Source of the DNA: Seonamhaeicola sp.
GTDB lineage: Bacteria; Bacteroidota; Bacteroidia; Flavobacteriales; Flavobacteriaceae
NCBI RefSeq assembly: GCF_028281565.1
Contig: NZ_JANQJQ010000020.1
Coordinates: 1 to 43,000 of the forward strand
DNA length: 43,000 nucleotides
Direction of reading: 5' to 3'
Position 1 is the stretch's first letter, and the number at the start of each line of letters is the position of its first letter. The translations under genes and the position numbers were made by a program. Below the pieces are notes generated by a model. It worked only from the letters and a program-made list of their open reading frames with translations, searched no databases and was not told where the DNA came from. Below are positions 13,455 through 20,137 of the stretch, piece after piece.

Positions 13455-13772
13455 ATGGCAGACGAAAAAGATAAACCAAAACAAGGACAGATAAATATTG
13501 AGTTAGATGAAAAAGTAGCTGAAGGAACTTATTCCAACCTGGCTATTATTAACCATTCCGTATCAGAGTTTGTTGTTGATTTTGTAAATATTATGCCCGG
13601 GGTTCCAAAAAATAAGGTGAAGTCCAGAATTATATTAACGCCACAGCATGCCAAACGATTATTAAAAGCACTGGCCGATAATATAAACAGATTTGAAAGC
13701 GCTCATGGTGAAATTAAAGATTACGAGCAACCGCCTATACCTCTGAATTTTGGGCCAACAGGTCAGGCTTGA
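13455..13772 (+). CDS. DUF3467 domain-containing protein
   Basis: This small cytoplasmic protein of 105 residues belongs to the DUF3467 family, whose function is unknown. The conserved centre (NLAIINHSVSEFVVDFVNIMP, shown in part) covers about residues 27-50. It is followed by RIILTPQHAKRLLKALADNI and the conserved tail ending in NFGPTGQA. No signal peptide or membrane span is seen. It lies just downstream of rpoC, as in many Bacteroidota, but a terminator stands between them. The striking feature is the 3' end: the last 15 codons and stop recur three times downstream (see the repeat entry at 13725-14090). Confidence 0.9.
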   Translation: MADEKDKPKQGQINIELDEKVAEGTYSNLAIINHSVSEFVVDFVNIMPGVPKNKVKSRIILTPQHAKRLLKALADNINRFESAHGEIKDYEQPPIPLNFGPTGQA

Positions 13773-14090
13773 TAATTAGTAAGAAAATCTGAAAAATGTT
13801 TTGTGGAGTGTTGCTCGAAATTTTTCACTGAGCAACCGCCTATACTTTTAAATTTTGGGCCAACAGGTCAGGCTTGATAATTAGTAAGAAAATCTGAAAA
13901 ATGTTTTGTGGAGTGTTGCTCGAAATTTTTCACTGAGCAACCACCTATACCTTTAAATTTTGGGCCAACAGGTCAGGCTTGATAATTAGTAAGAAAGTAA
14001 TCTGAAAAATGTTTTATCTAGTGTTGCTCGAAATTTTTTAATGAGCAGCCTCCAATACCTTTGAATTTTGGGCCTACAGGACAAGCATAG
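13725..14090 (+). repeat. Tandem array of DUF3467 gene 3' ends (four copies)
   Basis: The segment coding for EQPPIPLNFGPTGQA-stop starts at 13725, 13830, 13935 and 14043, giving spacings of 105, 105 and 108 bp. Copies 1 to 3 share both the coding end and about 57 bp of spacer, nearly base for base. Copy 2 has one amino-acid change (Pro to Leu). Copy 4 gives the identical peptide but differs from copy 1 at 8 of 15 codons, all synonymous, and uses TAG instead of TGA. Each spacer holds tgaaaaat/atttttca as an inverted repeat. Each junction forms gttgctc/gagcaac, in which the right arm is the start of the next gene-end copy. Only copy 1 is joined to the gene. Confidence 0.95.
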
Positions 14091-14093
14091 AAT

Positions 14094-14132
14094 AAAAAAA
14101 GCCTTGAACTTTTAAAAGTTCAAGGCTTTTTT
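14094..14132. terminator. Bidirectional terminator
   Basis: The arms aaaaaagccttgaac and gttcaaggctttttt form a long perfect stem with A- and T-runs on both sides. It directly follows copy 4 of the DUF3467 gene end and faces the convergent Fe-S gene on the minus strand, so it can serve both. Confidence 0.9.
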
Positions 14133-17608: not shown

Positions 17609-17682
17609 GCCGATATAGCTCAGCTGGCTAGAGCAGCTGATTTGTAATCAGCAGGTCGTGGGTTCGAGTCCCTCTATCGGCT
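17609..17682 (+). tRNA. tRNA-Thr (TGT), second copy
   Basis: This is a complete 74-nt tRNA whose sequence is identical to the partial copy at 1-67 over the shared part. Acceptor gccgata pairs with tatcggc, and the anticodon is TGT. It stands alone, with its own promoter element upstream and a terminator at 17694-17717. Confidence 0.97.
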
Positions 17683-17693
17683 CAGAGAGAATA

Positions 17694-17717
17694 AAAAAAC
17701 GCCTTCATGGGCGTTTT
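17694..17717 (+). terminator. Terminator after tRNA-Thr
   Basis: Arms aaaaacgcc and ggcgttttt flank a 6-nt loop, with an A-run before and a T-run after. It begins 12 bp beyond the tRNA. Confidence 0.85.
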
Positions 17718-17741
17718 TGTTTTATGTTGGGATTTTGGGAC

Positions 17742-17771
17742 GAGAAGTTTATCCTGAGCGCGGACGAAGGA
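17742..17771. repeat. 30-bp dispersed repeat (copy B)
   Basis: This matches 137-166 at 25 of 30 positions. As at the first locus, it lies between a tRNA-Thr gene and a duplicated tRNA 3' end. Confidence 0.7.
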
Positions 17772-17789
17772 AGTCCCTCTATCGGCTCT
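17772..17789 (+). repeat. Duplicated 3' end of tRNA-Thr (fragment B)
   Basis: The first 17 bases repeat 17667-17683 exactly, and all 18 match the fragment at 167-184. It sits 105 bp downstream of the genuine tRNA end. No other part of a tRNA is present. Confidence 0.85.
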
Positions 17790-17796
17790 GAGATAA

Positions 17797-17828
17797 AAAA
17801 ACGCCTTTCAGAAATGAAAGGCGTTTTG
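17797..17828. terminator. Terminator for the DUF4369-type lipoprotein gene / tRNA-Thr region
   Basis: A perfect 13-bp stem (aaaacgcctttca / tgaaaggcgtttt) with loop gaaa is flanked by A- and T-runs. It is placed to end the minus-strand lipoprotein gene and is a second terminator for plus-strand readthrough past the tRNA. Confidence 0.85.
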
Positions 17829-19964: not shown

Positions 19965-20137
19965 GCAATAATAATTTTAGATTAAATCGCTGCAATATAA
20001 ATAAAATAAAAGCAAGCGATTTTGTAGTTTGGCACGATGATTGTGATATAATAAATATATTCAATTATTAAAAAGTTTATTGAGTGGTTACTTTAAACTT
20101 AGTAATTGTAATTCATATTTTTGGTTGGTTAGTTAGT

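Follow-up and report, generated by a model that had tools for sequence, protein, structure and literature searches.

In a 43,000-nucleotide stretch of the genome of Seonamhaeicola sp. (contig NZ_JANQJQ010000020.1, positions 1 to 43,000, hereafter the window), the 3' end of a gene encoding a DUF3467 protein is repeated in tandem. Arrays of this kind lie at the same gene end in many other flavobacteria, and their presence is tied to a specific DNA spelling that straddles the start of the repeated unit. Array presence is labile, yet partly inherited. The account that we put forward tentatively, as quite possible if short of probable, is that of an old, self-renewing array bound to its locus and acting at a specific DNA site, probably by means of a recombinase supplied in trans.

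The segment encoding the last 15 codons and the stop of the DUF3467 gene starts at positions 13725, 13830, 13935, and 14043 (spacings of 105, 105, and 108 bp), and each of the three full units joins this 48-nt gene end to 57 or 60 nt of shared spacer, in agreement with the earlier note on this DNA. Tandem Repeats Finder reported the array at 13725-14080 (period of 105, 3.4 copies, 92% matches) with a score of 587, and the two remaining repeats of the window scored only 50 and 55. The gene product (105 amino acids) belongs to PF11950 (E = 6e-34), and all four copies encode the peptide EQPPIPLNFGPTGQA followed by a stop, save for one P-to-L change in copy 2. Units 1 and 2 are 97% identical, and unit 3 exceeds both by 3 nt. 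The fourth gene end, which joins a terminator hairpin, differs from the first at 10 positions and encodes an unchanged peptide. The junction behind this last copy matches that of the array-free genus mate S. sediminis (L004/L151), and copy 1 differs from the last copy only silently.

A protein search for relatives of DUF3467 gave 510 loci, of which the best 80 were taken; further genomes were added later. The comparison comprises one genome per species, and unit numbers were compared between species. Among the 160 distinct gene sequences, 58 had an array, 99 had none, and 3 that run off the contig were left out of the counts. The same gene end, downstream of rpoC, therefore carries arrays in 58 of 157 flavobacterial genes and none in the other 99, a variation among relatives that the earlier note had proposed to look for. 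The 60 distinct arrays collected have 2 to 8 gene-end copies each, arranged head to tail, with units of 79 to 114 bp and single outliers of 60 and 198 bp. Spacer sequences differ from genus to genus, and adjacent units of one array are often nearly identical. In the 38 arrays examined for this, the first copy encodes the full end and the stop, with I/M and T/A variants. Among the seven genomes of the window's genus, only the window and G400 have an array, the other five having a single gene end. Units of 82 to 84 bp with similar spacers are shared by several species of the genus of G338, among whose members are named Winogradskyella.

Two unit types alternate within the arrays of L043 and L075. 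In L250 (G230; copies at 887, 972, 1056, and 1141 of the reverse complement), units 1 and 3 share a spacer and unit 2 has another, closer to the spacer of the congeneric G385 (L256); such alternation needs block duplication or exchange. The first unit of L052 is 198 bp long, about twice the usual length, with a palindromic GTCATTCTGAATTTATTTCAGAATC in its spacer and a conserved box (described below) too degraded to count. Six contigs of the first 80 relatives end within 400 bp of the stop codon; one of these, L003, is from G400, whose array sits on another contig. The assemblies of G219, G267, G038, and G093 also break at the array region, probably because identical units defeat assembly. Outside the family, a strict sequence pattern gave no match in 15 other families of the order (166 genomes), nor in 29 other genomes of the family itself (the reversed control matched 2); this is a weak test, since a comparable strict pattern detects just 9 of the 397 genomes of the family.

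The tyrosine codon immediately before the repeat is TAC in 55 of 58 genes with an array and in 39 of 98 without, and the exact sequence GATTACGAGCAACC occurs in 46 of 58 and 22 of 99, respectively. Elsewhere in the compared part of the gene, TAC makes up just 10 to 20% of the Tyr codons. A scan of silent differences over 89 codons in 148 genes ranked this codon highest (TAC in 52/55 versus 39/93; P = 1.8e-11), far ahead of the runner-up (P = 5.5e-4); the top seven also hold codons -4, -5, -6, and +1, together with -29 and +13. Pairs of genes were then compared on a tree of 156 classified rows, built from rpoC and the body of the DUF3467 gene without the site. For TAC, 10.6 of 17 independent pairs pointed the same way and 0.1 the opposite way (median P = 0.002), and the neighboring Lys codon gave 1.9 versus 3.9, showing that shared ancestry does not explain the association. 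The sequence GGTGAAAT also passes this comparison (7.5 versus 0.4; median P = 0.016). Because 21 of the 159 rows behind the sample tests came from a search with array units and 4 were hand-picked, the association was repeated in two other large samples: TAC was found in 22/22 genes with an array versus 10/42 without in the protein-search sample, which was not chosen for arrays, and in 21/22 versus 21/39 in the genus of G338. The sequence dependence spans about 14 bp, perhaps 26. Since the Tyr codon lies outside the repeat, mere duplication of the repeat should be indifferent to its spelling.

A unit has the following order: gene end, stop codon, spacer, box, a linker mostly of 8 to 11 nt, and the next gene end. 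The box, GGTTGCTCGAAAT, is present in the first unit of 55 of the 60 arrays (at least 9 of 13 matches) and, apart from one mismatch, repeats in inverted orientation ATTACGAGCAACC, the stretch of the gene that spans the start of the unit. The similarity of box plus linker is about 0.70 across all gene distances (0.74 among the closest pairs; 0.56 when shuffled), and the remaining spacer is near the shuffled level except between close relatives. This profile suggests that the spacer is neutral and inherited with the genome and that the box is under constraint. Across 32 genomes, the exact 13-mer of the box occurs 16 times inside arrays and 3 times elsewhere (19 places in all); about 3.6 are expected by a rough count, and the reversed control gave none. 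A pattern for the junction matched 19 places in 9 of 397 genomes of the family, all of them inside DUF3467 arrays (1 match in the reversed control).

The box changes together with the gene. At box position 9, genes with TAC have G in 51 cases and A in 1, and genes with TAT have A in 3 and G in 1 (P = 6e-4, uncorrected for relatedness); the count of 3 includes G093, which was added by hand and is the only array found late in the study that entered the statistics, in this Tyr table. Likewise, the Glu codon GAG occurs with C in the box in 46 cases, T in 4, and A in 1, and GAA occurs with T in 3 and C in 1 (P = 0.005 with the single A excluded, again uncorrected). Box position 10 is A in 54 of 55 boxes, though only T would pair with the gene, which argues that a specific sequence is kept beyond complementarity. 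Pairing of a box with the next copy of its own array beats permuted pairs (6.6 versus 5.9, 0 of 300 permutations as high, uncorrected for relatedness). Of 33 cases in which copy 2 is not identical to copy 1, however, 14 have a box that pairs better with copy 1, 8 have one that pairs better with copy 2, and 11 are ties, so we rejected a hairpin between the box and the next copy as the main constraint. This preference suggests that the gene arm, rather than the neighboring copy, may matter, though decay of later copies would also favor better pairing with copy 1. In G093, contigs C7 and C9 (L248/L249) both end in the DUF3467 gene-end region, and C7 starts inside a box reading TGCTCAAAAT, beside a TAT/CAG version of the site.

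The copies of one array differ in their state of preservation. Compared with the first copy over codons 2 to 15, the 41 middle copies have 96 silent and 15 replacement changes and the 60 last copies have 242 and 131; random changes would be about 27% silent. The middle copies were thus probably real gene ends not long ago, and, with the last copies decayed, the most recent units seem to lie close to the gene. In 6 of the 60 arrays, the window included, the last copy has kept its peptide better than its silent distance would allow had it been copied locally and then freed from selection (P < 0.01 each, under a rough model); that of the window, with 8 silent and no replacement differences, gives P = 5e-4 for local duplication without selection under the same kind of model. 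The first units of these six arrays probably come from the locus of another strain, by homologous exchange or insertion, to judge from this pattern of substitutions. A nearest-relative test for the native copy gave no answer because the relatives are too distant. On the tree, array presence changes at least 32 times, fewer than in 100 shuffles (mean of 46.9, minimum of 38).

These observations are consistent with an old array fixed at a single location, the end of the DUF3467 gene, in which each unit would comprise a working gene end, a stop codon, a neutral spacer, and a conserved box inverted relative to the ATTACGAGCAACC of the gene. New units would arise at or beside the gene, and older ends, as the decay pattern suggests, would be pushed toward the terminator and degenerate. 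The gene would take its end from the first unit, so that changes persist there only if they are silent. The making and removal of units would depend on a specific DNA sequence around the unit start, and most likely a site-specific recombinase acting in trans would add or remove whole units between sister or strain copies of the locus. We think it rather unlikely, though worth stating, that the units of the arrays, of about 80 to 114 bp, are a class of site-specific DNA units smaller than any other known. Each would combine a substitute gene end with one recombination half-site, and a recombinase encoded elsewhere would have maintained them over long evolutionary times in the 3' end of a conserved gene, with the newest unit continually replacing the gene end.

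Several results weigh against this account. No enzyme is tied to array presence. Mapping of 80 relatives for rpoC, ferredoxin, and prfC singled out 11 in which the spacing was odd or a gene was missing; no recombinase or integrase gene was recognized when their open reading frames (ORFs) were read by eye, with no family search made. Several contigs end in the array, and larger inserts are possible there. Nor did Pfam reveal a recombinase when run on DUF3467 and on 10 of the 15 ORFs in the window that lie beyond position 20000 and have at least 200 amino acids. Units of about 100 bp are, moreover, short for excision as a circle. The sequence rule has its own weak points. In a small sample chosen by unit similarity, TAC was found in 8/10 versus 6/11 genes, which is not significant. 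GAG and CAA alone fail the tree-aware test (median P of 0.29 and 0.25), and the Glu codon at the unit start is outside the 14 best of the codon scan. Within TAC genes, the left half of the site (GGTGAAAT) is weak (raw P = 0.001; pairs 4.8 versus 0.4, median P = 0.125). Finally, TAC may be either a precondition for the array or kept because of it.

A recombinase in trans fits the sequence rule best, and pairing-aided slippage fits the co-change of box and gene and the lack of a recognized enzyme gene. By slippage we mean slipped-strand duplication by no dedicated enzyme, in which a looped-out unit would be stabilized by pairing between the box and ATTACGAGCAACC, unit 1, with the sole full arm, duplicating best; this is a serious possibility and a close rival, though on balance doubtful. 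The head-to-tail arrays with near-identical neighbors, the mainly vertical inheritance, and a box complementary to the gene arm that tracks the Tyr and Glu codon changes are all expected under it. In single-stranded form, the 1/2 and 2/3 unit junctions have better folds than shuffled sequences (z of -2.8 and -2.6), the junction of unit 3 and the last copy less so (z of -1.6); the whole first unit with both arms, however, folds no better than shuffles (z of -0.4), and the conserved A at box position 10 runs counter to pairing. Plain tandem slippage, which the earlier note had named as the alternative, leaves by itself the role of a silent base outside the repeat unexplained, and without exchange between strains it does not account for the six arrays with diverged yet coding end copies. 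If instead the box and the gene arm were a regulatory element of the host (located at the 3' end of the DUF3467 transcript and working as an RNA or protein site), the copies would be by-products of repetition kept as useful. The conservation of the box independently of gene divergence and the constraint on silent sites of the gene where arrays exist point that way. Nevertheless, 99 of 157 genes do without an array, the trait is gained or lost many times on the tree, no Rfam family reaches its gathering score in the array region, and the copying of a gene end would remain unexplained, which makes this explanation improbable.

No more probable, and if anything slightly less so, is the proposal of the earlier note that the units are small mobile elements that come from other cells and integrate at the gene end. 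Its idea of integration gains from the DNA site rule and from the box lying upstream of the downstream gene ends, as in gene-end islands. The gene stays intact, with full first copies and a native-like last junction; in the window, the native junction and the peptide are both preserved in copy 4, from which copy 1 differs in its codons only silently, and two unit types alternate in L043, L075, and L250. Ordinary homologous exchange within a species would, however, yield the same foreign ends. What lacks support is the mobility. The earlier note had held that a spacer existing nowhere else would tell against it, and the window spacer indeed occurs nowhere else in the genome, although the conserved end of the spacer, the box, does recur in other genomes. 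The junction was found only at the DUF3467 gene, with no copy at another locus; matches away from the site in G118 and G362 were inspected and look unrelated. Spacer similarity follows gene similarity and falls near the shuffled level between species other than close relatives, which indicates that arrays are mainly inherited. The gene-end peptide had no match in phages or plasmids, and a degenerate gene-end pattern had none in viral contigs. One viral contig matched the junction pattern inside an ORF with no gene end behind it; we took this sole match as chance and rejected a phage, plasmid, or viral carrier. No large autonomous element was recognized at the site in the 11 odd-spaced loci, and the other mapped loci mostly leave little room before ferredoxin or prfC. 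Among the matches listed, no gene-end copies lie more than 170 bp apart on one contig (160 of 397 genomes have a match; the three matches of G071, among others, stand outside this list, and G093, G219, G267, and G038 break there).

The features of the array are collected in Table 1. The DUF3467 gene lies between what we take to be rpoC on one side and a small ferredoxin-like gene and prfC, on the opposite strand, on the other; most of the mapped relatives have the same arrangement.

Table 1. Features of the DUF3467 gene-end array in the window
Feature	Position	Strand	Basis
DUF3467 gene, 105 aa (PF11950); the gene end serves as repeat copy 1	13455..13772	+	ORF, Pfam
Putative recognition site in the gene, GGTGAAATTAAAGATTAC followed by GAGCAACC; left half weakly supported	13707..13732	+	Codon scan, tree-aware pairs
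Tyr codon TAC, upstream of the repeat	13722-13724	+	Within putative recognition site
Unit 1, 105 bp: gene end, stop, spacer, box, linker	13725..13829	+	
Unit 1 box GTTGCTCGAAAT; inverted copy of 13720-13731, one mismatch	13810..13821	+	
Unit 2, 105 bp, 97% identical to unit 1	13830..13934	+	
Unit 2 box	13915..13926	+	
Unit 3, 108 bp	13935..14042	+	
Unit 3 box	14023..14034	+	
Last gene-end copy; same peptide as copy 1, 8 silent and 2 stop-codon differences	14043..14090	+	
Terminator hairpin adjoining the last copy	14095..14132	.	

Two tRNA-Thr loci of the window also have a gene-end repeat, at 105 to 115 bp and without the DUF3467 box. At 17609-17801, the 3' end of a tRNA-Thr (anticodon tgt) recurs 105 bp downstream (17667-17696 and 17772-17801, 90%), and the second copy comes with the start of the terminator. 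In front of that copy stands TATCCTGAGCGCGGACGAAGGA, a repeat with 12 occurrences in the genome when up to 2 mismatches are allowed. At 1-190 lies an apparent second tRNA-Thr copy, cut by the window start and unlisted by the tRNA search. The 18 nt at its end (51-68) are found again at 166-183, where a repeat of the same type (CATCCTGAGCGTAGTCGAAGG) immediately precedes them.

The re-supply of the last 15 codons of a gene from an array, under a rule that reaches one silent base beyond them, is an unusual link between codon choice and genome change. If the recombinase account is true, the arrays show how far integrative elements can shrink; if slippage is true, they are a natural test bed for inverted repeats driving tandem duplication. 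In either case, they probably break short-read assemblies, as in the 6 of 80 relatives mentioned above.

Bacterial minisatellites, or variable-number tandem repeats, consist of head-to-tail units in variable number whose neighbors are alike, as are the 2 to 8 copies of the DUF3467 arrays. Minisatellites are independent of outside sequence, whereas here a silent base outside the unit matters, one box is conserved across genera, and the unit holds a working gene end. Nor is the box dispersed in the manner of repetitive extragenic palindromes, its 13-mer occurring at just 3 places outside arrays in 32 genomes. Integron attC sites have the form R'' (RYYYAAC)...R' (GTTRRRY). As in integron cassette arrays, the units follow one another with a short inverted repeat wherever two of them meet, but the arms here, GTTGCTC...GAGCAAC, are in the reverse order, and units of this size have no cassette genes; the attC orientation was thus not found, and no search aimed at an integron integrase was made. 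Cis-mobilizable elements (CIMEs), considered here together with the accretion of integrative elements, are segments bounded by attachment (att) sites without an integrase of their own, in tandem at one gene end. The DUF3467 units share this att-like tandem layout, but they are far shorter, and no integrase-bearing partner was recognized in the loci inspected. In work on Dehalococcoides, tandem islands at ssrA are described in which a motif with no match to the gene stands before each repeated gene end, a border from which the authors infer the insertion point (PMC3146451). The islands, bounded by a 20-bp repeat within 100 kbp of ssrA, include sixteen that carry an integration module with a serine recombinase (PMC3146451). 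The geometry of the repeated gene ends is alike in both systems (PMC3146451), but the islands are far larger and many have a recombinase, whereas the DUF3467 units are gene-free and about 100 bp long. The codon scan, the tree-aware pairs, and the two large samples support, as an association, a specific attachment sequence at a duplicated gene end; within the loci and collections searched, no integrase gene and no horizontal movement were found, and we therefore do not file the arrays as integrative elements. No description of a gene-end array of this kind turned up in the literature searched (titles and starts of abstracts, with subscription journals outside the scope), where the one paper found to mention DUF3467 concerns another subject, and we regard the DUF3467 arrays as a new form standing between minisatellites and integrative gene-end repeats.
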